Positions 23,481-50,477 of a stretch of 64,000 bases of DNA are shown in pieces. The position numbers and the translations under genes were made by a program. How positions within the stretch are numbered: position 1 is the first letter of the stretch; each line of letters begins with the position of its first letter. The notes beneath the pieces are model-generated. The model made no database searches, was not told where the DNA came from, and saw only the letters and a list, made by a program, of their open reading frames with translations. Source of the DNA: Acholoe squamosa (taxonomy: Eukaryota; Annelida; Polychaeta; Phyllodocida; Polynoidae); assembly GCA_949317995.1 (NCBI GenBank), contig OX439044.1, positions 23,012,733 to 23,076,732 of the forward strand, in the 5' to 3' direction.

Positions 23481-23830
23481 GGTAGGGCAGCGGGACCCAG
23501 GAAATTCGGCAAAAGGGTCACTTCTTGCAGAGTTAACCTGGCCCTTCATGGAGACGAAAGTTGATGCCGTCGCAGTTCCCAGTGTGCCCGGCCAAACGGG
23601 GGTTCGGGGGCAGAGCCAGAACTCATCTGAATTTGAATTACATTCAGATGAGATCATCTGAAATTTATGGAAACTTAAATGGAAGATTATTATTCAGATG
23701 AGATCTCATCTGAAAACAGTCAGAAGTGTGTGACAGCATGGTCCCACCACGTTCCTGAGGAACTGAGGCGGCGTGAATGTTTCTCTACAGTGTGACGTCA
23801 TTCTACTTCCGGCCAGGTTAAAATCCCAAG
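23480..23830 (+). repeat. Dispersed repeat, inverted partner near 55.1-55.5 kb
   Basis: Blocks 'gatgagatctcatctgaa', 'gaagattattattcagatga' and 'cacttcttgcagagttaacc' reappear in reverse orientation at 55100-55510. The 'cagatgagatctcatctga' core is itself palindromic. Confidence 0.7.
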
Positions 23831-23837
23831 AAGAGAT

Positions 23838-24004
23838 GGCGCAACATACAGTATTTCTATGTAGACACCAGATGGCAGTGCAAGCTGACAAACATATTAC
23901 AACAATAAGGGCTGAGTCATTTATTACCAGTGGGGGGGGGGGGAGCATTTGGAAGAACCCCTTTCAGTGGGGCAAAATCCTAAAGAGGATGTACTGCCTG
24001 TTGG
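23838..24004 (-). repeat. Uninterrupted copy of the repeat that hosts the Polinton
   Basis: Read on the minus strand, this copy runs through 'ccaacaggcagt', 'ttttgccccactgaaagg' and then 'ggttcttccaaatgc' without a break. The same order is split by the Polinton: left half at 26826-26873, right half from 50472. It serves as the internal reference for the empty insertion site. Confidence 0.85.
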
Positions 24005-24829
24005 TAGGCACTGAAATACCTCCACTGTGTGAGTCTGCTGCAGTAGAGGTGTGAAACTGTGATAAAGCTGAAACTGGGTAGTGGTAAACTCTCCTTTCTT
24101 TGCAAGCTTATTCTGAAGCTATTTACTGGAGGATCTTTACAAACAAGGGCTCATTTTAACAGGCTTGGCTAGACCTTCAAAATGAATATTTTTTTTGTAC
24201 AAGATTTAATGCAGGGAATTTTGCTTTCAACCCCATCGAAGTTCAACCAAAAGTTTAGAACCATTTTATGATGAGAGGATTACTGAGCACCTAAAAATAA
24301 ATGGTTCCCACCTGTTCTATGGTTAAAAATGATCTAGAAAATGTATAGCTTTTCTTTTTCTAAGGGGCTGCAGTATGTTTGACAGACCCTGCAAACTTTT
24401 TGGGCGAGTTTATTTCTGGACACTTGTCCCAACCTTCACCATGTTGGGTACTTCTGAGTCAAAGACGATATTCTGCCGTGGTTCTCTCAGAGCGCGCAGT
24501 TCAAGGGAAAAGATGACCTCAACAAGAAAAATGTTGCAAGGACTACGGATAGGAGTTGCCACGGATGACGTCACAGCTGCTGTATGACATCACTAGTGAC
24601 GTCACAGGTAAAACGAAAACATTATGGAGTTGCTACGGTCGCTACGCTTCCAGCCGCTTACACGGCTTGCAACTCCAACAAATTTGCTTTTACATTGTTT
24701 GATTATGATAAAATGTATCATTATTTACATTCCTGGGGGTATATCTAACTTATCTGAAAAGAAAATTGCCCAAAATAATCATTTCAGTGATCTAGTCTAC
24801 CTTGGATTCATCTTGCTTGATCACAAAAT
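24005..24829. other. Unassigned intergenic stretch
   Basis: I see no gene. Short repeated 'gacgtcac' motifs near 24560-24610 include possible CRE-like sites, without further support. Confidence 0.35.
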
Positions 24830-26867: not shown

Positions 26868-26873
26868 AGGGTT
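26868..26873. repeat. Polinton target duplication, left (agggtt)
   Basis: This hexamer abuts the left terminus and recurs at 50472-50477. A 6-bp duplication is the Polinton norm. Confidence 0.92.
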
Positions 26874-26976
26874 AGTAGTATCTAAGACGGTCTCCTATAA
26901 ATCACACCTTTTGAATTCAAACTTTGAATTGAAATGTTGAATTCAAAAGGTGTGATTTATAGGAGACCGTCTTAGA
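26874..26976 (+). repeat. Polinton left terminal repeat containing a hairpin
   Basis: Seven outer bases (AGTAGTA) are followed by a 96-bp palindrome (26881-26976). Its arms, tctaagacggtctcctataa and onward, pair perfectly for about 40 bp around a short centre. Such terminal foldbacks are not a standard textbook feature of Polintons. Confidence 0.9.
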
Positions 26977-27894
26977 TTGAAATTTAACTTTGCATTTAGG
27001 TGAATGTTGTAATTATCCTATACTTGAATACTATGAAGAAAGACAAAGATATCAAATTTGAAATTATATGTTTAATTCAGATTAATAAAATCTTAACAAA
27101 TATACTGATCAAATCTTTTTAAAACTTACAGTAAGCAGAGCCTTTATGGTAGGCTACAGTTAAAGCTCCTTATGAATCATATAAGTTATATCTTGGTTGG
27201 AAAGATATACAGAAGCACTGTCCAATCTCATGATATCTACTACAATTATGTTGATATACAAAAGAGAAAATCTTTACAAATATACTGCTATATATCAAAT
27301 CTTTTTAAAACTTACAGTAAGCAGAGCGCTCATGGAAGGCTACAGTTAAAGCCCCTTATGAATCATATGAGTTATATCCTGGTTGGAAAGATATACAAGA
27401 GCAGTGTTTAAACTTAATGGCTTGGAACGACCTTAGCTTTGAGCTGCATCACCTAGAAACTATTCATTAGTTTAAGACTAAATTAGTCAACTATGTAAAG
27501 TGAAAGTGCATATCCACTAAAGTCACTCCCTATATATGCTTAATAGAAGAATACACAAAGTAAAATACCACCCCTGAGGCTGTGTTGCTATGACTCTATT
27601 TATATTTCTTTCATGTAAAATCCAGATAGTATTATAGTATTTCTGCTAAGTATACATGAGTATATAAACAGTTAGACACTACAAAGTGATGCAAAGGTTG
27701 ATAACAACTTACCTTACAGGACATACAAAGACTCTCGCAAACTATATAGAGTCAAAGATGTTAGTTAAACAACAATATTTTCCGTATATTGACTTGTTAT
27801 AATCAATATATGTACATGTCCCACTCTCATACATTACTATTTTTTCCACGTTATGACCGGTGCGGTGGAATGTGTCACGTTTACATCAGCGATT
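26977..27894. repeat. Polinton left non-coding end with direct repeats
   Basis: Two copies of a unit of about 135 bp, 27091-27222 and 27271-27411, share 'aaatctttttaaaacttac', 'gtaagcagag' and 'ggttggaaagatatac'. No gene is supported. Repeats beside a virus-like terminus could mark a control region, but that is inference. Confidence 0.8.
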
Positions 27895-28116
27895 TTATTC
27901 ATGTGCAAATTCTTTTAAGGGCTCAGCTTTCATTGAGATTTTTGATATAAATGTATTCCAACTAGTTTTTTGCTTTGATGCAAACCATTCGATTATTAGG
28001 TACATATGATTAGGAAAGATACCATTGTATTTTTCAGTTTTTACTGACATAAGAAAGGTTTTAAGTGAAGATGGTATAGGAAGGCTGTGTATGCTATGTT
28101 CAAGATGTTTATGCAT
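27895..28116 (-). CDS. Small Polinton accessory frame, possible SOCS-like segment
   Basis: The 73-residue frame contains HSLPIPSSLKTFLM, which recalls the Cullin-5 half of a SOCS box (LPLPxxLKxYL). Just upstream in the same frame, PRNL resembles the usual PRSL start. The elongin-C half is not recognisable. It lies at the extreme end of the gene array. Assignment is weak. Confidence 0.35.
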   Translation of the reverse strand: MHKHLEHSIHSLPIPSSLKTFLMSVKTEKYNGIFPNHMYLIIEWFASKQKTSWNTFISKISMKAEPLKEFAHE

Positions 28117-28271
28117 ATGTGGAAAATATAGGTTTCTTGGAATATGAACTTTTCTTTGTTTATTTTTACATTTTAATTTATTTAAAAAAAAACAATGTCT
28201 ATGCTATACAATATAGCAAGTTTACATTGTATAATTAAACATAGATGATATTCTCTAAGTTTGTGTTTTTG

Positions 28272-28598
28272 TCATATGTTTTTAGCTATGTTTTGTACCA
28301 ATTTTTCATCTTGAATTTCAAACCCAGTTTTTTTAAAGATATGATCATATGCCTCATACATCATATTTTTTACCCTTTTTTCTTCTAAAAAAGTACATAT
28401 ATTATGATATTCTAAATACTTTTTATGTTGAAAATTGTAAAATAAGTATAAAATTATTTCAAGTTTTAATCCAAGCTTCCACTGTGGTTGAAGCATTATC
28501 CATTGCTTACATGAATATGAACACATGACTGACCATGTCCTAAAGGGAAGTATACATTCGTTAAAAGAATTTTCCACTTTTTCATAGTATTTATACAT
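28272..28598 (-). CDS. Polinton accessory frame, unknown helical protein
   Basis: A 108-residue frame rich in aromatic and charged residues, predicted by eye to be mostly helical. I recognise no family. It may belong with the adjacent 27895-28116 frame in function. The AT-rich gap 28599-29021 holds only short, low-complexity frames. Confidence 0.4.
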   Translation of the reverse strand: MYKYYEKVENSFNECILPFRTWSVMCSYSCKQWIMLQPQWKLGLKLEIILYLFYNFQHKKYLEYHNICTFLEEKRVKNMMYEAYDHIFKKTGFEIQDEKLVQNIAKNI

Positions 28599-29021
28599 GT
28601 GTTTTACCTTTGCTCTCTATATTTTATATAAATTTTAGGTGATTTTTATATTTTGCTTCATATAATTTTAATCTTAGCTACATATATTATGACTTTTAAA
28701 AGTTTTTTAGTGTAAAAATTGATAACATAGGGAAAACTATATACATTTTTATTATTTTTTATTATCATAAATATTGAAAATATTCTTTTTTTAAAGTTAC
28801 ATAAGGGTGTACATCTACTATGAAAGTGAAGATATATGTACAATAATGAAAGACATACTTAATAGGTTTAATAAACTACTTTAAATAAGATAACTCTTCA
28901 CACAATTTTAAAAGAATAAATATACAATTTCATTTTAACAGCATATTTGTTATTAATATTAACGCGCATTAATACATGCTACAAGTAATGTTTACACTAA
29001 ATCAAATTCTTTAGATGATTT

Positions 29022-29618
29022 TTAATAGCAGGAATTTATAATTTTAGTTTGTAAAAAATGTGCAATATCATTTCTACGCATATCATGTTTAAGAACATTT
29101 ATGAATTCTGAGGCAGGTAAAGTCTGCTTCTTTTTCCACAGTTTTAATACTTCTAATGCTCGATTACAAGGATTACTACAAGATGCTTGACTTCTTATCA
29201 TGTTGAGTGTTTCATATGGTATATCAAGTTGAATTCCTATAATTATCCATTCTTTTCCTATATTTTCTGCTATTTTTGACAATAATATTTGAATTTTTTT
29301 TTCATTCATATTAAAGGGATATATATTATTTTCTATACAAAATATGTTAGCCAATTTAATTAGATCTTTTCGTTTGCTTAATTCTAAAGCATTTTTAAGG
29401 TCATTAAGGTTATGATTATTTTCCCACCATGAATTTAACATATCTAATGACATATCATACAAAGATTTTTGATCCTCTAGTGACATCATATCTACTTTTG
29501 AGACGTTCAGATATATCCCCATTTTTTTCCAGTCATGATAAAACATGGAGCTTATCTCTTTAAGAGTGTTATCAGAAGGATAAGATTTGATGATAGGAGT
29601 AACTATATAGCTATCCAT
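29022..29618 (-). CDS. Tandem Death-domain protein of the Polinton
   Basis: This 198-residue open frame contains two Death-fold repeats. The first spans about residues 18-92: LKEISSMFYHDWKKMGIYL, then LDMLNSWWENNHNLNDLKNAL. The second spans about 107-190: IGKEWIIIGIQLDIPYETL, then ALEVLKLWKKK and RRNDIAHFL. Both keep the Death-domain pattern of a Trp in helix 2, I/L-rich helix 3, 'xxML..W' in helix 5 and a charged 'R.DL/IA' in helix 6. Death domains mediate homotypic assembly in apoptosis and innate immune signalling (FADD, MyD88, TNF-receptor families). No signal peptide, enzyme or caspase domain is present, so it looks like a pure adaptor or decoy. It sits among accessory genes of a virus-like element. 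I infer, but cannot show, interference with host signalling. Confidence 0.8.
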   Translation of the reverse strand: MDSYIVTPIIKSYPSDNTLKEISSMFYHDWKKMGIYLNVSKVDMMSLEDQKSLYDMSLDMLNSWWENNHNLNDLKNALELSKRKDLIKLANIFCIENNIYPFNMNEKKIQILLSKIAENIGKEWIIIGIQLDIPYETLNMIRSQASCSNPCNRALEVLKLWKKKQTLPASEFINVLKHDMRRNDIAHFLQTKIINSCY

Positions 29619-29886
29619 ATTTGTTTATTTTATGAAAATGTTTTTTGGTTTTACTTATATGTATATTTAAGATGAAACCACAATCAAATTGTGTAAAAAT
29701 AGTTACTCTTTCCTTATTTTTCACCCACTTTTTCTTTATCCCAAATGTATTTTTACAATGAAATTGAAGAAAAACCTAAACTCTTTATAATACTGTTGGT
29801 GGATTTTTTAAAAATGCTTATTTTTATTTTTAATCTATTTCATCTTCATTGGATATATAACCATCACTAGCAATGGAAGCACAAGC

Positions 29887-30222
29887 CTATGTTTTATTAT
29901 TTTCACTTTCATCGTTTTCTCCATCACATACTATTTTTCCATAATTTTTCATGTAGTTAAAATTTCTGTTTTTTCGCTCGTATTCCATGTTATATCGAGC
30001 CAAAGTGGCAGCTCGTTTTTGTGCAAAGCCCTCCATTACTTTTTTTTGAGAATCTTGGAGTTGTTCTTTTAATATGTTATTTATACCTTTTTCTTCTTTT
30101 AGTTGATTTTGCAAATTATTTTTAATTTGTATGAGCTTGAAAATGTAATTATGTTGAGCATTTGTGATCTTTTCTAAAATATGTAATTCATCCTCATCTT
30201 GAATAACTTTGTGGTTGTCCAT
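29887..30222 (-). CDS. Polinton coiled-coil protein, unknown
   Basis: The 111-residue frame has a heptad-like stretch from about residue 10 to 75 (LQIKNNLQNQLKEE, ILKEQLQDSQKK) and a hydrophilic acidic tail. There is no signal or membrane segment. It could be a structural or scaffold protein; no family is recognised. Confidence 0.5.
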   Translation of the reverse strand: MDNHKVIQDEDELHILEKITNAQHNYIFKLIQIKNNLQNQLKEEKGINNILKEQLQDSQKKVMEGFAQKRAATLARYNMEYERKNRNFNYMKNYGKIVCDGENDESENNKT

Positions 30223-30350
30223 TTCAATAAACTTTGTATTACTTTTGAATGAAGAAGGCTTTTGCTTTTAATCTCATCCTAGTTTCTCATATGATATTAC
30301 TTCTCTTTTAAAAAATTTCATAGGAGTCATTTTTGTGTTCATTGTTAAAA

Positions 30351-30638
30351 TTAATATCTGATGATTCTGTTTTTTTTTAAGTTCATTTCAATGTAAGGAA
30401 CAAATATATCATTGGATGTATCATTCTTTTGAACTGAGCAGCTAAAAAATGATTTTATTTTTATATTATTTTTAAATTGATACCCTGATTCAGAACATGT
30501 GAGATATATTTCTTCATTTAATCTACCATATTTAATTTCTATTAAAATGCCTATGGTTGTAAGGAAAAAAATAAGTAGTGCTCCAGCTGTTCCAATTTTA
30601 TTTTTTTTTATTTTATTAATTGATGATAATCCTTTCAT
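30351..30638 (-). CDS. Polinton single-pass membrane protein, unknown
   Basis: The 95-residue frame has a basic N-terminus (NKIKKNKIG), one hydrophobic segment at about residues 16-34 (GALLIFFLTTIGILI) and a hydrophilic tail with two Cys. A type II or signal-anchor topology is likely. It lies beside the protease and capsid genes, so a virion or entry role is possible but unproven. Confidence 0.5.
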   Translation of the reverse strand: MKGLSSINKIKKNKIGTAGALLIFFLTTIGILIEIKYGRLNEEIYLTCSESGYQFKNNIKIKSFFSCSVQKNDTSNDIFVPYIEMNLKKNRIIRY

Positions 30639-30910
30639 AGTGTTTTTTAATAGTTATTTAATTTTTTAACAATAAATGTGTGGAAATTGTGAAAAAAAAC
30701 ATTTAAATTTTTGTTTTTATATAAAGCTTTTCATTTTTTTTAAAGTTGTTTATGAAATCACAATGTTTAATGCTATATTGTCCATAGTTGGATCCTTTTC
30801 TTTTTTTATTCACAGGAGTGTTTATTTGTTTATTTATGTAGAGTTGAATCTTTTTTTCATTCCACAAAGTGTCAGAAGAAAAACTAGATATAATTTTTTG
30901 CATGCTTATA

Positions 30911-31261
30911 TTAGAGGCTCTTTTTTTTTAAAAAATATAAGCAGTATTCTACACATCTTAAAGATGTTAATGCTTGTATAGTATGTGAAGAATATTTGTA
31001 TTTTTTGGATAATTTTTTTAAAAAAGAATATCTTATTGGAGGTAATCCATATGAATCAAAATATTCAGGAATATTATTTTTAGATTTAAAATAAAATGCT
31101 ACCCAGTGTTCTCCAGGAAGATAGCTTACATCTGTATTTGCTATGAAAGCTGTAGGATAAGATTTTATAATGGGGATTTTATCTGCTGCATAAATACCAT
31201 AATTTCCTTTGGTTATATTTTTATCTTTTTCTAAAATGCTTATTAATTCCTCACCGTTCAT
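30911..31261 (-). CDS. Adenain-like capsid maturation cysteine protease
   Basis: The 116-residue frame has the adenovirus-protease order. GEHWVAFYF supplies the catalytic His, EYFDSYGLPP the acidic residue, and the C-terminal TSLRCVEYCLYFL block the nucleophile Cys. Polinton PRO genes of this C5/C48-related class are thought to mature capsid proteins. It lies immediately downstream of the major capsid gene in the direction of transcription. Confidence 0.85.
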   Translation of the reverse strand: MNGEELISILEKDKNITKGNYGIYAADKIPIIKSYPTAFIANTDVSYLPGEHWVAFYFKSKNNIPEYFDSYGLPPIRYSFLKKLSKKYKYSSHTIQALTSLRCVEYCLYFLKKKSL

Positions 31262-31265
31262 TTTA

Positions 31266-32615
31266 TTATTTCAATGAAGTGGCATTGTTAGGTCCCAATA
31301 TTAAAAGAGAATCGTATTCTAAATAAATAACAGCTGCTATTCCATGGGTGGGGACTGTTCCCAATTTAAAAGTGAAGCTTAAAGATCCGTTTTCTGATAG
31401 TTCAAACGTTTCTGAATTAATTCCATTTCTTGATAAATCAAAACAGTAAAGCGCATATCCATTTTTAAATTCTTCAGGGGTTATATTCACAGGTTCATTT
31501 CTGAATATATTTCCTGTACCTTTTAGCATAGCTAAATATGCCATGAAATATTTATTGTTGGGAAAATCTATATTATATTGATAAAAAGGTGTACCTCCAT
31601 CGTTAACTTTTAATTCTACTTCTGTTACATTGAAGTTATCAAATTTAAATGGATTATGATTATAATGACCCGAGAAGCCATCGAGTCTTACTAAAGAGAT
31701 TATGACTCTTTTTGGTAATTCTGTGTTATTTACAATATGTGATCCTTGTAATATTGATTTATTAGGACCAAAAGTAACATATTTCATTAATGTTTTCCTC
31801 ATATTATATTTTAAAGTGAAATTCTGATCTAATCGTGCTCTCATTAATTCATTGTAAAAACTATCTGTTAGGCGATATCTTTTTATGAACATATTCATAT
31901 CTTCTATTTGAATTATATATTTTTTGTCAGCTTCTTTTGCCATTAAACAAAACTTTTCATCTGATCTATCGAATTCTATGATAAGAGGTAAATCCCCTGG
32001 AAACATCTTAGTTTGTGCGAACAAGTCATTGTGAACTCAACACAACATTTCTATTTCTGTTCCGTTTTTAGTTAAATTATAGCACTGCTTGACACCTGCA
32101 TTGTGTGTATTACTATTTACATTTTCTATTTCATTAAAATCTTTGGTGTCTTTGTAAAATAAAGATAGTATACCCAGTCGGCTAGCAACTAATGGATCAT
32201 AGCTAAGCAGCATTTCAAACATAGCTTTGTATGCATATAAGTCATTACTTTCTGATATCCTTATACCATTGATGAATGCTTTTACATTTTTAAATATGCT
32301 TGCTCCAAAAAAGTTTACTGGAAACACCCTTGCTTCGTCTTTAATTACATTTGGAGTGTTTGCATCAGGAGCACTTGAAGCTGTTTTGTCTTCTTTTAAT
32401 ATTTTTGCTTTTATTTGGATAAAGCTGTCATGTAAAGAAATGAAATCCCTGTTGTTTGACTTAAGAGAAAATTGAACAGTACCACTGTTTGCAGATGCCG
32501 TAGGCTCAACTTTTTCATAATAGTTTTTTTCAACAGAAGTATTTGCTAAAGGCACACTGTCAAAAGGTAAATCTGAACTTATACAGTGACAAGGACTCTC
32601 ATCTATGAGTGACAT
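31266..32615 (-). pseudogene. Polinton major capsid protein, double jelly roll, decayed
   Basis: The start (SLIDESPCHCISSDLPFDS and onward) and the distal LVRLDGFSGHYNHNPFKF region match the protein known from nematode and other invertebrate Mavericks as F54H12.2-like, the double-jelly-roll capsid subunit. Most of the protein is recognisable. The gene looks broken, with about one break. The protease lies downstream and the minor capsid gene upstream, the usual Polinton morphogenesis block. Confidence 0.85.
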
Positions 32616-32685
32616 TTTAAATTGTTTTTACTTTTTTAACTTTCTATAGGTGTCTATCCCAGCAGTATATTTTAAGTTTGGCTAA

Positions 32686-33156
32686 TCAAAAATATCTCTT
32701 GAGTATGTTTTTTTTTTTAATTTTGGATCTTTTGGTGCTAGAGTTAATTCTTTTTTTGGTTTTAGGTTTATTTATTCTGTTTCCTACATAATTTAAAGCG
32801 CTTGAACTTAAATCATTTAAGCTGGATTGAGCCTCATCTTTTAATGCCTCTTTTATGTTCCCTCCAGATAAAACATTTTCTGCAACATTTATCCCTCCTT
32901 TTAACATTCTTTTGCCTACTCCTTTAGCAGCTGACTTAAGCACTGGTGCTATAAGTGGAACAACTTTTTTAAATAAGCCAGCAAAAATATTACCTAAACC
33001 ATATCCTTTTTGATATTTAGTCCCCATGAAAACTGGGAGCCCTTGACCATGTTGAATGTATTGAAGAGGATAGGCATTTTTTTTTTCAAATAAGTTGTGA
33101 TATAATGCTCTATCGTTTTTCCTTTGGTTTGAACTGTAATGTTGGTGCATAACCAT
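32686..33156 (-). CDS. Minor capsid / core protein of the Polinton
   Basis: The 156-residue frame begins with a hydrophilic stretch, then GQGLPVFMGTKYQKGYGLG and an amphipathic segment (IFAGLFKKVVPLIAPVLK). It ends in a very basic tail (KTKKRINSSTKRSKIKKK). The G-LPVF-G...GYGLG...FKKVVPL pattern is the conserved minor capsid protein that precedes the capsid gene in Polintons and is compared with adenovirus pVI/core peptides. Membrane-active or DNA-binding roles are inferred. Confidence 0.7.
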   Translation of the reverse strand: MVMHQHYSSNQRKNDRALYHNLFEKKNAYPLQYIQHGQGLPVFMGTKYQKGYGLGNIFAGLFKKVVPLIAPVLKSAAKGVGKRMLKGGINVAENVLSGGNIKEALKDEAQSSLNDLSSSALNYVGNRINKPKTKKRINSSTKRSKIKKKNILKRYF

Positions 33157-33267
33157 TTTTTAAATAAAATTTAAATGAAGGAAAATCGTATAATATATAT
33201 ATATAAATTAAAAGAAAAGATTTATTAAAATAAAGTATATCTCATCTTATCTCAACTTTATTTTCTC

Positions 33268-33663
33268 TTATTTTTTTCTCCAGTTTGTTACCCACTCTTT
33301 TCCTAAAAACAATTTATTTGGTTTAGGCTTTCGTTTGCTTAAAAGCAAAGACTCTTGCTCATATATTTTTTGTCTAGGATGTAGTTGTACAGATGCTTCT
33401 GTGTCCTCATCTTCTTCGCTAGTAAAAATGTCTTTTTTCAATAATGTTTTTTGCTGTAAAACAGGGGATTTACTTACAGTAGGTATAGGTGATGTTTTGG
33501 TTAAAGGTGAAAAAACAGGAGTTTTGGTTTCTAAAATTTTTCCAAGTGATATGCTTTTTGGAGTTGAGGTATGCATTTTACTTTTGGAAAAAGGTGGTAA
33601 ATCTTTGGGAGAAAATAAATTTTTAGATTCATATTCATCATCTGAAGGATATTCTTCATTATT

Positions 33664-33734
<71 letters not shown>

Positions 33735-33945
33735 TAGACACATTTGTGAAAGTAGGAGGAGTTATATCTAATATGTTAGTTGCCCCCTCTTTCAGGTCAT
33801 GAGTTCCTTGTTTTAATTCATCTTCTTTTTTTTTCAGTTTTTTAGTATGATATATTATATCTGTCATTATATCTTCACTTGGATATGGTCCAGGAATATA
33901 AGAGCTCGATCTTTTTTTTTGCACCATCATCATCCATAGACACAT
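33268..33945 (-). CDS. Acidic low-complexity Polinton protein
   Basis: A frame of about 225 codons has a run of more than 20 Asp, encoded by an (atc)n microsatellite, followed by Ser/Pro/Lys-rich sequence (SPKDLPPFSK, TKTPVFSPLTK). No fold is evident. Its upstream end runs into a tandem duplication of about 200 bp, so the true start is uncertain. The function is unknown. Confidence 0.4.
33659..33733. repeat. (atc)n trinucleotide microsatellite
   Basis: About 24 uninterrupted 'atc' units, read as poly-Asp on the minus strand. Such tracts change length quickly. Confidence 0.95.
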
Positions 33946-34128
33946 TTGTGAAAGTAGGAGGAGTTATATCTAATATGTTAGTTGCCCCCTCTTTCAGGTC
34001 ATGAGTTCCTTGTTTTAATTCATCTTCTTTTTTTTCAGTTTTTTAGTATGATATATTATATCTGTCATTATATCTTCACTTGGATATGGTCCAGGAATAT
34101 AAGAGCTCGATCTTTTTTTTTGCACCAT
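33725..34128 (-). repeat. Tandem duplication of about 201 bp within the Polinton
   Basis: Unit 1 (33725-33926) and unit 2 (33927-34128) run from 'catcatccatagacacattt' to 'agctcgatcttttttttt' and are almost identical. The near-identity indicates a recent event. Confidence 0.9.
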
Positions 34129-34949
34129 ACTTTATCCAAGAAGGGGGTAAGATAGTAATGAGATGTGAATATAATGTTTGTGTACCTGTAGGCTCATTTT
34201 TAAAACCAGATTTTGAAAAATATTTCATTAGATCAATGATATTTGAATTCGCTATTTTCTTTGAATCATAACTTATTTCTCCAGCTGTGTCCCATTGGTA
34301 CTTATTTTCTAACATTTTTTCTAAGATCATTTTAATGTTTGGTCTTTGTGCTGTAATAACCAGAGTCGACACCGTATATAAAGAATGGAATATAAAGTTA
34401 CAACCGTTGTTGTTGTTTTATTTCTTTGGAGCCTTAAGGACTAACAGTCACTGGTCATCAGTTACTTGCTTATACTGATACTTGTACTTGTACTTATTCT
34501 TGCTTAGAGACGCCACTCTGTTCGTGAGCTAGGACTAGCCACCGAACTCCCTTAAGATAGCTTACACGTAGGCCACCTGAGTGTCTGATCGCGTCTGCTA
34601 TAAAACCACCGAACACCGCGTTTTATAGCCCCCGGCCGCCGACGGTGACGTCACAAGGCTGTGACGTCACCGCCGACGCGCCACCTAGCGGCCACAGCGG
34701 GAACCCGCCACCGAGCTTCGGTGGCCGCCGCCGAGCCGCCGGCCTATGTTTATTACAGTGCCAAGGGTACTTTGTCAAGAATGTAGTTTATGGTTATACC
34801 TATTTGTGATGTTTCCTTAGGTTTAGATTCTAGGTTGTTTACTTCTACAGGAAGTTGATCAGTGTTTTCAGTAGAATATATAGAGTAGGGATTTATTTTA
34901 AACACTCGCTGATTTATTAATTCTTCCTGTCTTTTTAAAACAAGTATTT
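34129..34949 (-). pseudogene. Conserved Polinton morphogenesis-block gene, interrupted by a solo LTR
   Basis: The block YQWDTAGEISYDSKKIANSN followed by IIDLMKYFSKSG matches an uncharacterised protein regularly found between the capsid and ATPase genes of invertebrate Polintons ('WNxxGEI..DGK.I.GSNIVDLI' pattern). The solo LTR at 34352-34757 lies inside this coding-like sequence. The gene is broken. Confidence 0.55.
34352..34757 (-). mobile_element. Solo LTR (406 bp) nested in the Polinton
   Basis: It begins TGTAATAA and ends TTATTACA, is flanked by a 4-bp duplication gtgc (34348-34351 and 34758-34761), and is far richer in G+C than its surroundings. On the minus strand it has a TATA-like GCTATAAAA (near 34620) and then AATAAA (near 34420), the order expected of U3-R. 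No internal retroelement genes are present. It is an LTR-retrotransposon relic, family unassigned and younger than the Polinton. Confidence 0.8.
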
Positions 34950-35192
34950 TTATGACGTTTTAGCTTTGAATGTGTTTTTTTTATCTATAGGCACATTACC
35001 AGCTAACACATTAAATATGCATTGGTATATTGCATCTAAGTCTTTTTTTGATGCAAAATCAATTAATATATTTCTTTTTTTGGCATTTTTGGCTGAGGCT
35101 AGCAATGAAAGAAAATGCTGATGTTTTATTATATTGCAACATTTCTTTTTTTTAACTCCAACTTTCCTTTTCTTTACCTGTGTTTTAGCCAT
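34950..35192 (-). CDS. Small conserved Polinton protein
   Basis: The 80-residue frame has a very basic start (VKKRKVGVKKKK) and then FLSLLASAKNAKKRNILIDF and AIYQCIFNVLAGNVPI. The 'R..I...A..DL...I.EC..N.L.GNVPL' pattern is shared with a short uncharacterised protein common in invertebrate Polintons and adintovirus-like elements, usually next to the ATPase, as here. Confidence 0.6.
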   Translation of the reverse strand: MAKTQVKKRKVGVKKKKCCNIIKHQHFLSLLASAKNAKKRNILIDFASKKDLDAIYQCIFNVLAGNVPIDKKNTFKAKTS

Positions 35193-35283
35193 TTTTTTAA
35201 AGTATTTTATTTATCAAAGATAAAAAATCTGATTTTTTTTTTATAGTGCAAGCTTCTAAACTTCACTTATCTCATGTAAGTTT

Positions 35284-35958
35284 TTACTTTTTATTTGGTA
35301 TAAATATTCGCTGTGAATCAGAAAAAATATCTGTTCTAAACATGAGATCTTTGTTTCTTTTTTGATGACCATCTATAAATAAATATCCATGAGGAGAATT
35401 TGTTGCAGCTGAAAATATATCATGAAAAGTTTTTACTCGATCAGGCATAAGTTTTCTTCCTAAAGAATGGGATATTGTTTGAACCAAAGGAGAATAAAAT
35501 ATTACTAAGTAAGTTGCATTTTTTGCCAATGTTTTTCTTTCTTTTCCTTCACAAAAAAAATTCTGCGTAATAAATACCACACTTAAACCATCATGATGAG
35601 AACGCTTAGTAAATAAATCTGTAACTAATGGATCCTTAGAACATTCCATCATTAAATCATCTAACACTATAAGCTCGTGATTATTAGGTGATATATAATC
35701 ATCAAAAGTATGAGGCAACCCTTGAATAAAATTAATGTTTTTTAAGTTTAAATCAATTACATCAGAAGGGGGACTTTGTCCATAAAACCAGTTTATTTTT
35801 TTAAATTCATTGTCTATAATGCGATCCATATTTTTTAAAAGATTAAGAAGAAAACTGGATTTTCCTGAATTACTAGGGCCTGCTATTATCATAGAAAATG
35901 GAGTTTTTAATCTCGCATCAATTAATTCTATGTCTTTAGTTTTAGTTTTTTCTACCAT
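35284..35958 (-). CDS. Genome-packaging ATPase (FtsK/HerA, A32-like)
   Basis: The 224-residue open frame has Walker A MIIAGPSNSGKSSFLLNLL near residues 23-41 and Walker B HELIVLDDLMMEC near 92-104. A sensor-like VVFITQNFF follows. Length and motifs match the Polinton/adintovirus packaging ATPase, which pumps DNA into the capsid. It remains open and lies between the integrase and the small conserved gene. Confidence 0.88.
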   Translation of the reverse strand: MVEKTKTKDIELIDARLKTPFSMIIAGPSNSGKSSFLLNLLKNMDRIIDNEFKKINWFYGQSPPSDVIDLNLKNINFIQGLPHTFDDYISPNNHELIVLDDLMMECSKDPLVTDLFTKRSHHDGLSVVFITQNFFCEGKERKTLAKNATYLVIFYSPLVQTISHSLGRKLMPDRVKTFHDIFSAATNSPHGYLFIDGHQKRNKDLMFRTDIFSDSQRIFIPNKK

Positions 35959-36940
35959 CTTGTATCTTATTTAATTCTTGTGCATAAAAACTACCAGTAA
36001 GTATTTCATTGTTTTCATCTAATAATATATAAGTAGGTGGCCATGTTCTAAGCGCAAAAGCTACTTGAAATATTTCTTTTTGCCAATTTGGCTTATATCC
36101 TTTAGTAAATGTTTTTCTTTTAGTTGTGATTTTTACTTTATCTCCTACTGAGAAAGGAAGTTGTATTCTTCTAGAATGTAAATATGGTTTCTATTGTTTG
36201 TCCCAAATTATCTTTTGGTTTTTTTCATCAACTTCAGAGGGGCTAATTCCTAGAGTACAATGTGGACTTTTATTGTAGCTAAGTACAATGTCTTGCAAAT
36301 CATCGATATATCTCAAGCTTTTTTTAAAGGTTAAAAATCGATGTATTTTATTTTGTATAGTTCTTATAAAACGTTCAACTATTGCAGCCTTTGTGTCTTG
36401 TGATGTGCTAAAAGAGTGAATATTTTGGTTAATGAGATATTTCTTAAAAACACCCTTAAATTCACTACCTTCATGTACTTGAATAAGCCTAGGCTTGTGT
36501 TTTGCCCTAAATAATATAGCTTTAAAGCCTATTAATGTTGTTTCTGCTTTTTTGTCTTTAAGAGGTTCTATGTAAGCATATCTGGAAAAGCAATCTATAG
36601 CAGCTAATAAATATGAAATGTTGTTATTATATCGTCTAATTTGGAAAGTACTTATTAAATCTAACTGCCATTGATCATTTAATCCTTTTACAATAGTTTT
36701 TCGTCTTAAAAAGTTATATTGTATAGGTTTGTGTGAAGTATAAGTTCTAGTATTTTGTTAAAATATTTCAGCGTCTTTTAAAGTTATTTTTTTTTTTTTT
36801 TTTTTAGCAGATTTATATAACTTTTTCACAGAACTAAAAGATGATGGATGACTTGGGTTAAAGTAAATACTTTCAAACAACCTTTTTATTTCTTGGTTTC
36901 TTTTTATTTCTTCTTTTTTTGCCATATTAAAATTAAACAC
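35950..36940 (-). pseudogene. Polinton integrase (retroviral-type), decayed
   Basis: Minus-strand sequence here carries recognisable pieces of a retrovirus-type DDE integrase core: a WQLDLI-type first catalytic block, then YLLAAIDCFSRYAYIEPL. A C-terminal chromo-like WPPTYILLDENNEI segment follows. In Polintons this enzyme inserts the element and makes the 6-bp duplication seen at its ends. The gene looks broken, with about two breaks. Confidence 0.8.
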
Positions 36941-37733
36941 TTCTTAAGAATAAACATATAAAGATGTAAACATGTTATGTTTGAAACAGGTGCAGTCCTT
37001 AAAACATTAAAGCATGCATTTAACCCTCTTGTTTACTAACCATCTCATTACAATTCTTAAGTTATGTTTTACTTTTAACTAGTGTGCGATGGTAAATATG
37101 ATTTGTCACATTTAGTACATGAAATGAAAACATTTATAAACTATGTTTGGAACAAATGCACGTATCCTGATGAATTAAAAGTAAAATTACATAAAAAAAC
37201 AATGTTAGGATCTTAGTATTTACACACCCGATAATAAGTTAATATCCTTAAGGACAAATACCAGATTCCTAACAACAACAACAAAGTATCATGATAGCGT
37301 ATTAATTGATTTGTTCACTGAGCATTTCAATGTAGATATATGACATCAATAAACATCATTTAAAAGTACAAAATATCATTTCACTGAAAAAAGAAACACA
37401 AAAAATAAACTTTTTAGGTTTAAACTAATATATAAGCAGCTAATACTTACTAAATATGAATTCTCTTTTACTATATACACAACTTGTTATAATAATACAA
37501 AATAATATTTTCAATACAGGCACATGAAAAAACATTTAAAAGCAAACAAGAAATATTTTAAAGAATGATATCAACAGTTTTAGATTTTTTTGGATAAATA
37601 TTTCCCTTTTTGCAACTTATTTTAAGAGTAAGCTGTAGTGGCTCATTTGTCTTTTTTGTTAAATTTAAAACTGTATTGTTATCTTTACCAGCAGATGTGT
37701 TTTTACCTGTTTCTTTTTCATTTTGACTGTTGC
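36941..37733. other. AT-rich gap inside the Polinton
   Basis: No ATG-initiated gene is seen. The minus-strand stretch 37563-37733 encodes a short Lys/Thr-rich peptide (QLTLKISCKKGNIYPKKS) without a start codon and may be a gene remnant. Confidence 0.4.
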
Positions 37734-38096
37734 TTAATGTAGTTTATTTACTTTTTTTTCAGTTAAATCGATAATTTTGTTAGAAAGGACCTTACTTCTT
37801 TTTTTCAGATTTTTAGTAATTATTTTTTTTTCTTTTTCGTCCTTTTTTTTAAAAGAATCTTTGCTCTTTGATTTTAATTTCTCCAGTTCATATTTTTCAT
37901 GACATGAATTACATCTAGATGGGTGTTGACTAAAAAAATGAGCGGAATGTAAGGGTCTATGACAGCGGATACATTCTTTGTACATATTTTCATAACAAGG
38001 AATACAATATTTTTTTCCAGTTTTTAAGTCATCACAAATACCACAATATATACATAATTCGCCCATTTTAAATATATAAAAATATTTGGAAAACAA
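37734..38096 (-). CDS. Cys-rich zinc-binding protein of the Polinton
   Basis: The 120-residue frame has CxxC pairs (CIYC, CIPC, CIRC, CNSC) and His residues within about residues 15-70 (CHRPLHSAHFFSQHPSRC), and then a Lys-rich tail. At least two zinc sites are likely. The composition suggests nucleic-acid binding. It lies next to the PC4-like and polymerase genes. An alternative start is the second Met (MGELCIYC). Confidence 0.55.
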   Translation of the reverse strand: MFSKYFYIFKMGELCIYCGICDDLKTGKKYCIPCYENMYKECIRCHRPLHSAHFFSQHPSRCNSCHEKYELEKLKSKSKDSFKKKDEKEKKIITKNLKKRSKVLSNKIIDLTEKKVNKLH

Positions 38097-38176
38097 ATAT
38101 TAAAAGTTGATTGTTTTTTAGCTAATTATGTTCACCTAAAGATGTCTATCCCACAGACTTTTTCTTAAAATTTTTT

Positions 38177-38488
38177 TTAATCGCTGTCAGAATTACTATC
38201 TACATAGGAATTATCGCTGTCACTTTCATCACTGTCTCTTTTAACCGATGATTTACTTTTCTTTTTACCTTCATTTTTTGTTTCTGTTTCTTTAGGACTT
38301 TTAATCTTTTTTATTCTTTTTTCTATTTTAACCTTTAATTTTATAAGTTCATCACATTCAGATTTTTGCAAGCTCATATTTTTATCTTTAGTCATATCAT
38401 GCAAATGAATATATTCTTTTCCTCTAAATCTAGTTATATCTATTCTCTTTTTTTTCCCAAAAGGAATGGTGTGAAATTTAGAAGCCAT
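38177..38488 (-). CDS. PC4-like single-stranded DNA-binding protein
   Basis: The 103-residue frame resembles the PC4/Sub1 fold. IPFGKKKRIDITRFRGKEYI followed by HLHDM and MSLQKSECDELIKLK matches the beta-strand, 'D.R.F..K.YV.IR' and 'GISL...W..L' elements. The C-terminal tail is Lys-rich and then Asp/Ser-rich (DSDESDSDNSYVDSNSDSD); cellular PC4 has its acidic Ser-rich region at the other end. PC4 binds ssDNA and acts in transcription and replication. Next to the polymerase gene, a replication SSB role is plausible. Confidence 0.55.
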   Translation of the reverse strand: MASKFHTIPFGKKKRIDITRFRGKEYIHLHDMTKDKNMSLQKSECDELIKLKVKIEKRIKKIKSPKETETKNEGKKKSKSSVKRDSDESDSDNSYVDSNSDSD

Positions 38489-38704
38489 CAGAAGTAATTT
38501 CTTTTAAATTAATTTGTGATTTCTTTGAAAATAGATTTTTAAAATATTAACTTTTAAGAGCTTAGAAATGATTTCTTTATGTTGATATAAAATACCCTGC
38601 TGTTTAGATGCAAAAGGTGAATTTCATTTGTTTTAAAACAGTATAACACAGGTAATCTCAAGTATATTTTCACTGTTCCATACACAATGTTACGCCTTTT
38701 TAGT

Positions 38705-41690
38705 TTAATTTAAATTTTTTTTTTTTTTTAAATTTACAGATGAATCAAAATATTTATGTCTTTTACACACATTGATCATATGATTCCCATAAGCAAAAGA
38801 TTTGATTCCATCTTTTTGTAGCCAACGTTTATCTTCAAAAGGTGAAAGAGCAAGTTTATTTTCTTTTATTACATGTACTTTATGATTGTAACTTCTCATA
38901 GCATGATATGATTCTCGATGAAATTTCTTTTTAAACAATACTTTTTTAAACTGGTCATGTCTCATATCTCTTATATTACTTTTTTTAACACCTTTTACTC
39001 TTTTTGTTTCTTTATTTGATTCAAATAAAATAGAATACATCTTAGGACGTAAACCAATGAATTCTTTTATTTTTTTTCCCTCACTTTCATCCTTAAATTT
39101 TCCTAATACTCTACAATTCTCAGTACAGTGCAGGGGGTGATCTAGTTTAAGATTTGAAAAATCAAAATATTTTTTTATACTTTTCAGCTTTTCAATAAAA
39201 TGTTCATCTTCTATAAAATATATGAATGAATCTGTGTCTGAATATAACAAGTTAATAACAGATAAAGAAAAAGTAGGTAACATTACCTTATAATGGAACC
39301 AAAACATGTGCATTTTAGATAATTCTAATATAGTAAATCCAAGATATATCGGCTTGTCTAAATATACTTGTTCTTTAACATTTTGTATTCCTACATAATC
39401 TTTGTCTAAAAAATACAAGGAATGAAAAGTAGGTTTTCGAATAAGTTTTTTACATTTAATTTTACATGAAGTAAGGGTTAAATTTTTCCTTTTTTTAACA
39501 TTTTCCATGCATTTTCCAAAACATGAATTAGTCATTAACTTAAAAAATGCTTTATCAAAAGAAGAAGTTGATTCTCTCCGTTTAGTGTTATTAAAGTCAA
39601 TATATTTTTTCATCCAAGCAGATTGTTTAAAAGATAGAATTTTATGTATTTTAACTATTTTCATCCCTAATTTAAGGTATAGTTTTAAATTCTTATAGTG
39701 AACAACATAATTTTTTTTTCTCTCTTAAATCACATATTAGCTTATTCCCACTTTTTTTGTATTTAATATTTAATTTATGTAATAAATCTTTAGCATATGG
39801 AGATAACTCATCAAGAAATATCTCTTTTTTTTTCTGGAGCCAGTGGAAAATCATCATGCAAAAAATGTAAATGCTTTGGATACAATAAAGTAACTTCTAA
39901 TATATAGCCTTCATCACTGTTGTTAGCTACTTCTAATACATTAAACTTAGAATAACTAGAAGACGGTAACCAAACAAAATCATGAGTGGGAAGTTCTTGA
40001 CACATAGCATGGCCATAAAGATTATTACAATCATAATAAACCAAATGTTGGGAATCGTTTTTTACTTTAACATATCGTTGTACAACGTTTGTAATACCTC
40101 CGCGTATACCTTTTTCAATAAAGTTATGTTTATCTATATCATCTAAAAGATCAAGCTGTATCTTTGTGTGTTTTAACATAGCCTGATAACTAAGAGATGG
40201 AGCAGTAAGGAATTTCGCAGGATCTAAACCATAATTTTCTAAACTTCTTTCTCTAAAAGATTCAAATACATCGCATAATAGTAAAACATCAATTTTAAGG
40301 TATTCTTTTAAATAGCTTCCTAAAGATTTACAATTCAATAAATTAAACATTGTTTTAGCATGAGTGTAAGCTTCTTTAGATATATTTTCTTTAGTTAGCT
40401 TATTATAGAAATGGGATCTAACAGGTAGATTTTTTTCTTTTAATTTTTCCCATGAATCTATGTAATCATAACACATAATTCCCTTTTTTATTACATAAGG
40501 TAATAATTCCTTTTTGGTTAAGTTTTTTTTGGTTTCTATGAAATTATCTACATGATTAGCAGCTAAAAGATCTGCCAAGTGTGACAAAGAGGCAGATAAA
40601 AATTGGAATGAATCTAAAAAGTAAAAATTTTCAAATTGTAAAGTTAAAAATTTAATTTTTGATTAAATGTTTCAAAGTCTGCATATATGATAAAAGGGTT
40701 TTTAATTTGTTTAGAATAATCTTTGTATTCAACTTTGCTTCATTTTTATGGGCATTATATATGATTGACCAAAGAAGCTATTATTGTCACAGGTTTTTTG
40801 GGTATGAAAAAGGAGATCATTTTTTTTTTAAAAAAGAAGTTAAACATTTATGACAATAATATCTTGTTTTCTTATAAAAAAAGGGTCTAACAAACTTACT
40901 CATGTCTCTTATAAGCCAATAATGTTCCCGATATAGTAAAAGGTTAACATGATTTAAATGTTTTTCTTCATTAAAATTAGTAAAAATATACATAGGATAT
41001 GGATGATAATTTTCATTTTTATTTTTAAATATACCAAAAACATTTACAATTATGTGTTTTTTTTTCTTCAAATTTAGCTATTTGACCAAGTTTTACAGGA
41101 AAAGAAAGACAAGATATATTTAAACTTTGCAAGTAAGGTAAATAAGTGCTTGCTCTGTTTGCATTTGTTTTACTTTTAAACAAGGCAGCTAATATGCTAA
41201 AAAGAAAACATTTATTTCCTGCTCCTTTAATATTAAGCAATGATCTTTTCTTAAACAAAATACTGTCTATATCAGAAGGCTTATAGCCTCCCAAAGGATT
41301 ATATCTATAAATAGAAATTCGCAAACATATAATTTCTTTTAAAAACCATTCAGATCCTAGTTGAATAAAAGAATCAAAAAAAGCAGAAATGATTCTGATG
41401 GCTTCATAAACTTTTTCTTCTATAGATTTTACATTTAGAATTACAGCTACTGGACTTTGAAACCAAGGTTTTATTTCAAAATGTTGGTTAGTTTCTATTT
41501 TATATTTGGCTAAAAATGTATTAAGACCTAATTGGAACTTAACTCCACCATGCTTTAACATCCACTTTTTTATTTTAGATGTAACTCTGTTTGATATATA
41601 TCTTAAAAAAAATTCTAAGTCATGATTATATATTTTAGGGACCAAATTATATTCTATTGCAATATTCCTGAAACCATTTCTTCGATTCAT
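38705..41690 (-). pseudogene. Polinton protein-primed DNA polymerase B, decayed
   Basis: Motif A appears as YYDCNNLYGHAM, motif B as KLMTNSCFGKCMENV and motif C as LLYSDTDSFIYF, all typical of protein-primed family B polymerases. The N-terminal part (KCFLFSILAALF, FPVKLGQIAKFE, NVFGIFK) matches the long extension found only in Polinton polymerases. The gene looks broken, with a few breaks. This polymerase is thought to start replication at the inverted repeats with a protein primer. Confidence 0.9.
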
Positions 41691-42668
41691 TATCTGAGTT
41701 TACAACGGCGAAAGTGAAGTACTACAAATACTTTGCCATACTCAAATTTTATAAGTTTTCCTTGGTCATCAACTATTTCTATTTCTATTTCGTGTATCTC
41801 AGACATTTTAACTTTTTTATAATAGGGAGAAGTAAATATCATTTTAAAATCTTCTCCAAACAAGCCATTACATCTTATAACTCTTAAAAGAGGAACTTGA
41901 ACATTTCCAACAACTTCATTAGAAACTATATTGGTATATAAATAAATATTTGAAGAACGAGAACTTAAAGAAGGTACTCCTGTTGCTTTATAAGAAGCAT
42001 AATGTTTATGTATTATTTTTTTTAAATAATAAATTATTATAATCATCTATGGATTCTAAAGGAAGACCATAGTAACCTGTTACTTTTGAATCAGTTTCAT
42101 CTTTAATACCTCCTTCTGCATTTGTTAAGCAAAGAATATCAGACAAAGAGGAAGGCATCCACACAGTATCTCCCCTTGCTACATGTAAAACAGGCTTTAA
42201 ATTTTCTTTTTCTATACTAATGTAAGGCTCTCTAGCCAAATGAAAAAAATCTAAATTTTTTTCGGCTAACTCTATTGATTTCATTAACTTATTCATTACA
42301 TCTATATAATTCTCTATATTACCATAATTTCCATATGGCATCATTTTAGTGTGAAAGCTCATGTCTGTTCTAACAGTGTCTATTTCTCCTTCTTCTAATA
42401 CATGTAATTCATCATTGACCCCCATTTCTTTTCTGTAAATAGCAAAAGTTCGATCTTGTGGAGGATCCTATGGAATATTGTACCAGGATACAGGAAGGTT
42501 TATTTCTACTATGGCCACCTCCCAATGACCTTCTAAATGAAATTTTCCAGGAATTTCAACAAAAAAATGACTTGTTTTATTAATCCGAGATGAATGAATA
42601 GTATTAGAAGGTAGAGTAACATAAAAGTCATCTGAGTGAGCCATTTTTTGTTTACCCATAAGCTTCAT
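41690..42668 (-). pseudogene. Polinton minor structural protein, decayed
   Basis: HSDDFYVTLPSNT and FHLEGHWEVAIVEINLPVSW at the start, and LIKFEYGKVFVVLHFRR at the end, match a large uncharacterised protein of invertebrate Polinton-like elements ('LEGEWEVALVEI...PFEFGKV.V.LHFRR'), probably a virion surface or penton-type component. The gene looks broken, with about two breaks. Confidence 0.6.
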
Positions 42669-42690
42669 TTATTTTTAATCTCATTTTGGT

Positions 42691-43581
42691 TTACATTAAC
42701 TTGTTTTTTATGTGACGATTTATGCTAGTTTCATACTCATTTAAACATAGAGCTAAATGATCTGTAGTGTATTTCACCAGGTAAGTAAAATTTTCTCTTT
42801 GGTTCCATTTCAGAAACATAGCATCACAAACAGGATTCCCATTAAACCATTTCATGTGACAAAATGGACAATTGATTTCTAAATTAATCGCAACTACTTC
42901 ACCATCATTTTTGGTATATTTTAAATGATAATGAACCACACTTGCGTAGCAATGCTTATGAATAGGTTTGCCACAACATATTGTGTATTCTATATTACTT
43001 TCATGTTTTTTGCTTACAAGAACTACCCTTCTACATAAAGCACATCCCAAATACACATTACTGTAAAATAAACGTTTTTCTCTCACTTTTTCTTTTATTT
43101 TACTTTGAAGCCTTGAAGAGGCATACTGTCTTGTGCCTTTACGTTTATTTTTATTTTTTATGAGATGAAATATTGCTTCTTCATTGTAACCAACAAGATC
43201 ACTTATAAATTTACATATTTCTTTAGTAAAAGAATGATTCTCTCCTAATAAGATACTGGATGTGATTAAAACTCTAGCAGCTTTAATTTCCTCTTGTATT
43301 ATCATATTTTTGATTTCTGAGAACATAAAATAACATTGGAAATAATGAGAAAAATATACAAGAGCTTCTGTTTTAATGTTTGATATGTCAATGAATTCGT
43401 CAGATAAAACAGAAAATATGTTAGAACATTCTTTGGCACTCATAAACGTTTGATTTGGTATGCTCACATTTAAGCAAATTTTAAATTTCTGCATATTTGA
43501 AGTAACATTGTTAAAAGAGCACAAACATGAAATGTACTCTACTCTTTCTTTAAGCAGCTCTATGTTCACATCAAGCAACAT
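42691..43581 (-). CDS. RING-like zinc-finger protein, paralogue 1
   Basis: The 296-residue open frame has a helical N-terminal half. Its pattern (FIDISNIKTEALVYFSHYF, RVLITSSILLGENHSFTKEI) is loosely BTB-like. The C-terminal zinc cluster is CALC (about 181-184), CCGKPIHKHC (about 204-213) and CPFC (about 238-241), spaced like a RING C3HC4/C4HC3. After it comes KWFNGNPVC. The fold suggests an E3 ligase or its adaptor. It pairs with the adjacent gene of like size and layout, implying duplication. Confidence 0.55.
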   Translation of the reverse strand: MLLDVNIELLKERVEYISCLCSFNNVTSNMQKFKICLNVSIPNQTFMSAKECSNIFSVLSDEFIDISNIKTEALVYFSHYFQCYFMFSEIKNMIIQEEIKAARVLITSSILLGENHSFTKEICKFISDLVGYNEEAIFHLIKNKNKRKGTRQYASSRLQSKIKEKVREKRLFYSNVYLGCALCRRVVLVSKKHESNIEYTICCGKPIHKHCYASVVHYHLKYTKNDGEVVAINLEINCPFCHMKWFNGNPVCDAMFLKWNQRENFTYLVKYTTDHLALCLNEYETSINRHIKNKLM

Positions 43582-43857
43582 AGTTACATAGATAAATACA
43601 AGTTTAAATATGATAAAATGCTTAACAAATGATTAAATTACCTTAACCCTTTCTACCATGAGAACTTGTATCCTCACTTATTTATTGTTATATTGTTTAT
43701 CAAAGCTGTTTTAATGAAGCTGTACAAACTAAATTCTAATTTATCTATACCTCTATAATAACTAAAAAACCTTTAATTTTACATGTACTTGTTATACTTT
43801 ACAAATATCAACTAAAATTAAACCAACTTTACAACAAAGATAAGAAGAAAAAATCTT
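43582..43857. other. Spacer between the RING-like paralogues
   Basis: AT-rich and without an open frame. It may hold the promoter of the 42691-43581 gene. Confidence 0.35.
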
Positions 43858-46146: not shown

Positions 46147-46190
46147 GAATTAATTTATTATTAAAATATAGTTTACAGAGAACCTTAGCT

Positions 46191-47643: not shown

Positions 47644-48058
47644 TTACAGCAATAAGGCTTTAAAAGTGTTCAGCGCTTTTCAAGAACAATTTGAATAAAC
47701 ACTTGTTCAATGGACACTTGCATTAGTTTGATAAAAGTTTACAGTGTCTACCTTTAAAAGTGGACTCAGCTTTTATCCTAGGTGAAGCTTTACGAGTTTT
47801 CAGCGCTTTCTAAGAACGATCAGAGTCCAAACAGCTTCACTTAAATCGAGCGATCCTTTTCATGGATGTCTAAAGGTAGACCATCTGTAGCCCATTTGTG
47901 GAACGTCTAGTTGACTCTCAGCAAACGTGCATTAAGGAATGGAACCGCGGCTTTCTTCTGTAACAGTCAAATAATGTAGATTTAGTATATCAAATATTTT
48001 ATGGCTGTTACAAAAAGTTCAGTTTCTTGCTCTCTTACTTGAGGCTACTATACCTTTT
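47644..48058. other. Spacer where transcription direction changes, with short repeats
   Basis: The phrase 'ttcagcgctttt/ctaagaac' occurs near 47670 and 47798, and 'gcttttatccta/gcttta' recurs around it. This divergent spacer between minus-strand genes and the single plus-strand gene may hold promoters. Confidence 0.45.
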
Positions 48059-50471: not shown

Positions 50472-50477
50472 AGGGTT
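50472..50477. repeat. Polinton target duplication, right (agggtt)
   Basis: Identical to 26868-26873 and directly adjacent to the right terminus. Confidence 0.92.

Follow-up and report, generated by a model that had tools for sequence, protein, structure and literature searches.

A tandem Death-domain gene in a Polinton

The window analysed here is a stretch of 64,000 nucleotides (nt) of the Acholoe squamosa genome (contig OX439044.1, forward-strand positions 23,012,733 to 23,076,732), and it contains an inserted element of the Polinton type that carries a small gene for a protein with two Death-type repeats. The element has inverted termini, both of which are palindromes of ~97 nt, and it is flanked by a duplicated target site, with an uninterrupted copy of the host repeat that took it lying in the same window (Table 1). 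Its GC content is 0.29, compared with 0.45 and 0.44 in the flanks. The Polinton hallmarks DNA polymerase B (PolB), rve integrase and A32-type packaging ATPase each score over their Pfam cut-offs in the element. Carriage of the Death gene by a Polinton, as claimed in the original prediction made from the letters of this DNA, is strongly supported.

The whole 198-residue protein matches the Pfam Death profile (PF00531) with an E value of 5.6e-12 and 46.1 bits (cut-off 22.6), and 0 of 8 shuffled or reversed versions do so. Two Death stretches are found in it at E<=1 and at E<=10, and one at E<=0.001. Scanned alone, the C-terminal half matches Death at 31.5 bits, and the N-terminal half has as its top match bDLD3 (bacterial Death-like domain 3), which at 24.3 bits falls short of its cut-off of 27.1, with Death not listed. 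Relatives from the same genome (numbered L below) show two Death stretches at E<=0.01 in L020, L022, L023, L024 and L029, and the better-scoring half is the N-terminal one in L020 (residues 18-90) and L024 (residues 41-110). Both halves of the window protein are read as Death-type because of these relatives. A single stretch was found in L031, and the profile is matched by all ten members of the family. Neither the 198-residue protein nor either half alone matched a DED family at E<=10, the profile scans gave no BIR for the window gene, and NCBIfam had nothing matching the protein. The profile evidence thus supports a protein of two Death-type repeats without any other recognisable domain, as had been predicted, with the N-terminal repeat recognised mainly through its relatives.

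A low-confidence model of the C-terminal half contains six helices, and its top 19 matches in the PDB are all Death domains. The nearest solved structure to the C-terminal repeat is FADD (E 6.9e-9), with MyD88 far behind (0.089), and the repeat belongs to the FADD class. The two halves differ in charge, with isoelectric points (pI) of 5.2 and 9.3. The start codon has A at −3 and G at +4. An open frame due to chance or composition was ruled out by simulation, by codon usage and by the shuffled and reversed controls: an open reading frame (ORF) of this length appeared in 1 of 200 runs that simulated AT-rich DNA as long as the element, and the codon usage closest to that of the core genes is found in the Death frame (0.213 bits per codon; <=0.132 in the other five frames).

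Copies across the genome and the slot in four lineages

The genome of the window (1.48 Gb) was searched for related genes, and the counts are lower bounds, as 150 candidates were scored per search. The search with the Death protein (P0001) gave 152 matches, with the best 150 of 1909 candidates scored and 150 rows listed. Lineage A accounts for at least 78 full-length rows at 97-100% identity to the window protein, 77 of the 78 being without a stop, and lineage B for two rows at 73-74%, one with a stop. The other listed rows are 13 partial placements, 7 second pieces of these and 50 rows at 27-35%. A search with the Death ORF of a third family, C, gave 150 scored matches (the best 150 of 2028 candidates), all at 98-100% and 145 without a stop. 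The small Death gene is present in hundreds of copies in the Polintons of this genome.

The gene is linked to the Polinton ATPase. When 93 listed A/B Death rows (excluding the 7 second pieces) were compared with 90 A/B ATPase rows, 87 of the 93 had an ATPase no more than 30 kb upstream on the same strand, at a distance of 5.7-6.4 kb in 70 of these, and a Death gene lay downstream of 87 of the 90 ATPases. Eight of ten fetched A loci show the capsid, the protease and the Death gene in a single order; in L016 and L017 just the Death gene and its near neighbours were seen. A host exon captured by chance in the window was ruled out, since the gene recurs alongside the Polinton gene set. For lineages A to D the homologues are not intron-bearing host exons unrelated to Polintons, the case that the original prediction had set against itself.

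Lineage B is a close sister of A (93% identity in the capsid piece); its copy L020 has the gene order of A, and in its copy L021 the Death gene and near neighbours were seen. Family C, whose neighbouring genes were inspected at L029, is more distant from A (capsid 57-59%, protease 54%, ATPase 53%) and has a 219-residue tandem Death ORF in the Polinton slot, 29% identical to that of A. In a blind test, a locus of a fourth lineage, D (L032), was picked by its ATPase alone (50-53%, no stop) and proved to have an uninterrupted 202-residue tandem Death ORF downstream, with 57% identity to C and 25% to A. Its order is capsid, protease, two small ORFs and then the Death ORF, as in the other lineages. 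This locus is one of 60 ATPase rows at 50-53%, which may include more than one family; L033, which came from the Death rows, is likewise of the D kind. Between A and either C or D the Death gene is 25-29% identical and the capsid 57-59%, and capsid identity among the lineages, the A/B pair excepted, is 57-70%. Hence, the tandem Death gene occupies a fixed slot in Polinton lineages A, B, C and D.

Two side observations concern these lineages. The Polinton ATPase rows at 50-53% to the window ATPase number at least 60, and most have one TAA, unlike the two elements examined. A dUTPase (L029:1294-1998, E 5.5e-41) lies just past the family C Death gene, and similar-looking ORFs are present in L032.

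Tandem Death loci followed by BIR sequence

Eleven of the 50 listed diverged relatives were fetched. Two are Polintons, L029 (C) and L033 (D). In the 3.9-9.9 kb fetched for the other nine (L022-L028, L030 and L031), neither 25 further window ORFs nor three family C proteins found a match. In all nine of these diverged loci outside the Polinton gene set, the tandem Death sequence is followed by BIR (apoptosis-inhibitor) sequence, which was confirmed by Pfam in L022, L023, L024, L026 and L030 and rests on tblastn in the remainder, several being broken. They form two classes, and BIR was found solely downstream of these. Class E (L024, L030 and nine more listed rows) is dispersed and has a tandem Death ORF of ~229 residues plus a BIR ORF. 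Class F (L022, L023, L025-L028 and L031) has tandem Death and then BIR sequences, several of them broken, mostly at a GC content of ~0.45. The class E locus L024 also contains large ORFs without a Pfam match. PolB-like ORFs were noticed by eye in L027 and L028, and Pfam gave nothing for the three that were scanned.

Evolution and constraint

The tandem Death sequences align colinearly, end to end. In a domain tree the N-terminal repeats form one clade and the C-terminal repeats another, each at 100/100, so that the repeats trace back to a single ancestral tandem, and a recent internal duplication of one domain is unsupported, each repeat forming its clade across families. The ~24% identity between the halves is weak, with 88 of 2000 shuffles scoring equally high. 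A separation of the Polinton Death genes (A to D) as a clade from the BIR-paired ones is likewise unsupported (2 changes, 66/67, 10% of 200 bootstrap trees), the tree being weak for either arrangement.

The Death genes of A (L010) and B (L020), neither of which has a stop, differ by a nonsynonymous divergence (dN) of 0.147 and a synonymous divergence (dS) of 0.297, giving a dN/dS of 0.49. For the protease, capsid piece and ATPase of the same pair dN/dS is 0.08-0.10 and dN 0.033-0.035, so that the Death gene dN is about four times that of the core genes; three other small ORFs are also fast (dN/dS 0.35-0.45). Neutral simulations gave a dN/dS of 0.62-2.06 (5-95%) and a mean of 6.4 stops, with 1 of 200 runs free of stops. 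The N-terminal half has a dN/dS of 0.40. From these sequence comparisons the A/B Death gene reads as constrained, with fast change. The original prediction had also pointed to a Death frame that stays open while several core genes are broken. This is true of the window copy and was dropped as proof of selection, being weak evidence because the capsid stop is private to that copy (no such stop in any of 8 other A copies examined).

Beyond this genome, no relative of the Death gene was found in the protein database or in IMG/VR or GTDB contigs, and no Death-domain-named protein was among the best 50 matches listed from BFVD. The ATPase has 36 relatives among unnamed proteins. IMG/VR gave one weak capsid match (L001) and no match with the PolB piece or the ATPase alignment, and phages gave no match to the Polinton ATPase.

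Mosaic structure of the window copy

Over 27891-36000 the window element is a recombinant of two Polinton lineages. Left of ~29.0 kb it is B-like (96-99.6%), and right of that point A-like (97.6-100% per 250-base block), the exception being one block at 78-82% at a triplet repeat near 33.6 kb. The two lineages meet either within the final 38 nt of the Death frame or beyond its stop, and no switch was seen elsewhere in the Death gene. Seven of the ten fetched A copies, compared left of the gene, match L010 over 2.5-3.0 kb, mostly to the edge of the fetched sequence. L010 and the B copy L020 have in common a 1,650-bp segment, at 97.7%, that is absent from the window left of 27891, and the terminal inverted repeat of the window was not found in 14 other loci within their fetched extents; the left end of the window copy is therefore its own. 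The left ~1 kb (26874-27890) is not common to the A and B copies compared and contains two 121-nt direct repeats that are 89% alike.

Other features of the window element

The features are collected in Table 1. The PolB piece at 38705-39664 was assigned by position and has no Pfam match. Capsid and protease homologues are longer in L029 (ORFs of 458 and 185 residues). The product of the gene next upstream of the Death gene may be a coiled coil, a guess from the letters. The ORF with a weak SOCS-box match, which has counterparts beside the Death gene of A and B loci, is perhaps a second host-signalling module. Adjacent paralogous ORFs on the minus strand (42691-43581 and 43858-44763; 25% identity over 289 columns, E 1.4e-17) have cysteine-rich C-termini and no credible Pfam match, and they may represent a duplicated zinc-binding gene. 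A 218-residue ORF lies on the opposite strand of the unit (47975-48631, plus) and has no match in Pfam, NCBIfam or the PDB. The minus-strand ORF at 33268-33945 has a run of 23 aspartates from a triplet repeat and lies beside a 202-nt tandem duplication.

Table 1. Features of the inserted element and its surroundings, in window coordinates
Feature	Position	Strand	Remarks
Host repeat that took the unit, uninterrupted copy	23820..24020	plus	paralogous empty site
Target-site duplication, left copy	26868..26873	plus	AGGGTT, 6 bp
Inserted unit	26874..50471		23,598 bp; inverted termini (AGTAGTATCTAAGAC...), each also palindromic
ORF with weak SOCS-box match	27895..28203	minus	E 1.9e-4, 22.0 bits (cut-off 23.5)
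ORF between Death gene and SOCS-box-like ORF	28272..28598	minus	matched in A and B loci
Candidate poly-A signals	28753..28872	minus	ATTAAA and two AATAAA, 152-271 nt past the Death stop; motifs only
Tandem Death-domain gene	29022..29618	minus	198 residues; ATG to stop, 198 codons
Death repeats 1 and 2	residues ~15-95 and ~104-193		of the 198-residue protein
Gene next upstream of Death gene	29887..30222	minus	matched in A, B, C and D
Adenain-like protease	30911..31261	minus	Peptidase_C5 (PF00770) E 0.0059, below cut-off
Major capsid protein, double-jelly-roll (DJR)-like	31266..32615	minus	broken by in-frame stop; E 3e-4, below Pfam cut-off
Conserved ORF just upstream of capsid gene	32686..33156	minus	"minor capsid" label by position; no Pfam match
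A32-like packaging ATPase	35284..35958	minus	no stop; Pox_A32 28.0 bits, above cut-off
rve integrase	35945..36757	minus	split over two frames; PF00665 32.9 bits (cut-off 32.6)
DNA polymerase B	38705..40476	minus	in pieces; DNA_pol_B_2 E 9.2e-15, 54.9 bits, in 39811-40476
Target-site duplication, right copy	50472..50477	plus	AGGGTT, 6 bp

Predicted function

Death domains assemble helical signalling complexes. We consider it somewhat probable that the tandem Death protein is a decoy adaptor that would bind host FADD-type Death complexes and block death or immune signalling; a decoy for FADD-like signalling is plausible. The protein would be made during replication of the element and would bind host Death domains, its C-terminal repeat being nearest to FADD. 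Without an effector domain it would cap or divert the oligomer and not complete it, and docking on a FADD-type complex would block growth of that complex. The opposite charges of the two halves would permit two different contacts. The infected cell would then stay alive while the element replicates.

Several points weigh against this proposal. The N-terminal repeat is weak by itself, with bDLD3 below its cut-off and Death unlisted. The full-length single-sequence AlphaFold model has a predicted local distance difference test score (pLDDT) of 42, is uninformative and was not used, and the model of the C-terminal half is of low confidence too. The C-terminal half has a dN/dS of 0.69, a value inside the range that the neutral simulations gave for the gene as a whole, and the constraint estimate depends on a single A/B pair. 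Copies that are 97-100% identical may be open through youth and not through selection. An ATPase within 30 kb is missing from six A/B Death rows, and three of the ATPases lack a Death gene. The tandem protein could also scaffold and activate instead of blocking.

In this last alternative, which we regard as unlikely, the two repeats would cross-link adaptors of the host and turn on a survival signal resembling that of NF-kB, as some v-FLIPs do. The accessible part of PMC9371342 lists the v-FLIP K13 as an NF-kB activator, and repeats of opposite charge could bridge two partners, but the sequence gives nothing that favours activation over blocking. It is improbable that the gene is a captured host adaptor with no present role, open in all these copies since the elements are young. 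The close identity of the listed full-length A rows (78) and C rows (150 at 98-100%) would be expected of young elements, but the slot is also filled in families whose capsids, outside the A/B pair, are just 57-70% alike, and the A/B dN/dS and the absence of stops from both sequences differ from the outcome of the neutral runs. Quite improbable is a role against other mobile elements or viruses, in which the protein would compete with Death-Death plus BIR products for a host partner; classes E and F of the same genome do pair tandem Death with BIR sequence. A role in the virion or its assembly, with the Death fold reused for self-assembly, is very improbable: in A, B (L020), C and D the gene does come just after those for capsid and protease, but its sequence is much less conserved than that of the capsid, and a host-facing role therefore fits better.

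Relation to known systems

The v-FLIPs of herpesviruses and molluscum contagiosum virus consist of two tandem death effector domains with no enzyme part. The window protein resembles them as a tandem of two death-fold domains that lacks an enzyme part, and differs in that its repeats are Death-type and its carrier is a Polinton; by analogy, we infer that it would be a Death-domain counterpart of v-FLIP. FADD, the best solved-structure relative of the C-terminal repeat, is also a two-domain adaptor of similar length (chains of 191-216 residues). Its N-terminal domain, however, is a death effector domain, which recruits caspase, where the window protein has a second Death-type repeat.

In the portion of PMC9371342 available, v-FLIPs are described as viral death-fold proteins that inhibit apoptosis. 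GIV-CARD of an iridovirus also inhibits apoptosis, in the hypothesis of its authors by competing with host CARDs (PMC4457926, available sections). It is likewise a stand-alone viral death-fold protein, but with one CARD in 91 residues and an iridovirus carrier, whereas the window protein has two Death repeats in 198 residues and a Polinton carrier. Oyster inhibitors of apoptosis (IAPs) such as BIRC10 and TII-DD join BIR and Death domain in one protein, according to excerpts of PMC8917759. Class E and F loci likewise have BIR sequence after tandem Death, perhaps as one gene, but in these the Death part comes first and is a tandem, and the loci are dispersed; the Polinton form is without BIR. 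ISKNV ORF111L, considered as a viral TRADD-like protein, was dropped from the comparison, as it is listed instead as a viral TRAF that binds TRADD.

Adintoviruses are similar elements, defined in the accessible text of PMC11071296 by an OTU-like N-terminus of PolB and an integrase chromodomain; neither family was listed in the Pfam scans of window ORFs, in which remote folds were not examined. According to the same text, anti-apoptotic homologues seem to be encoded by most adintoviruses associated with mammals, but the word "death" occurs 0 times in it. The claim that no tandem Death-domain cargo of a Polinton had been described agrees with the full-text literature searched, which gave nothing joining "Polinton" and "death domain" and nothing under "viral death domain"; subscription papers are mostly outside this coverage, and a mention in the adintovirus founding paper is possible. 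No Death-domain cargo is named in the parts available of PMC11071308, PMC8905726 and PMC8363768.

Significance

We tentatively propose, at somewhat less than even confidence, that the tandem Death adaptor is a standard and long-kept gene of an animal Polinton lineage, a counterpart of v-FLIP that shares an ancestor with the dispersed Death-Death plus BIR loci. Whether Polintons behave as viruses in animals is an open question, and a conserved, fast-evolving gene seemingly aimed at death-domain signalling is one that a virus would need and a plain transposon would not. Given the Death-Death plus BIR loci dispersed in the same genome, hosts may have acquired cell-death regulators from mobile elements. 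If the proposal is correct, Polinton-type elements would serve as vehicles for capturing, pairing and exchanging modules of cell-death control, and the expanding Death and IAP families of the host could partly descend from them.
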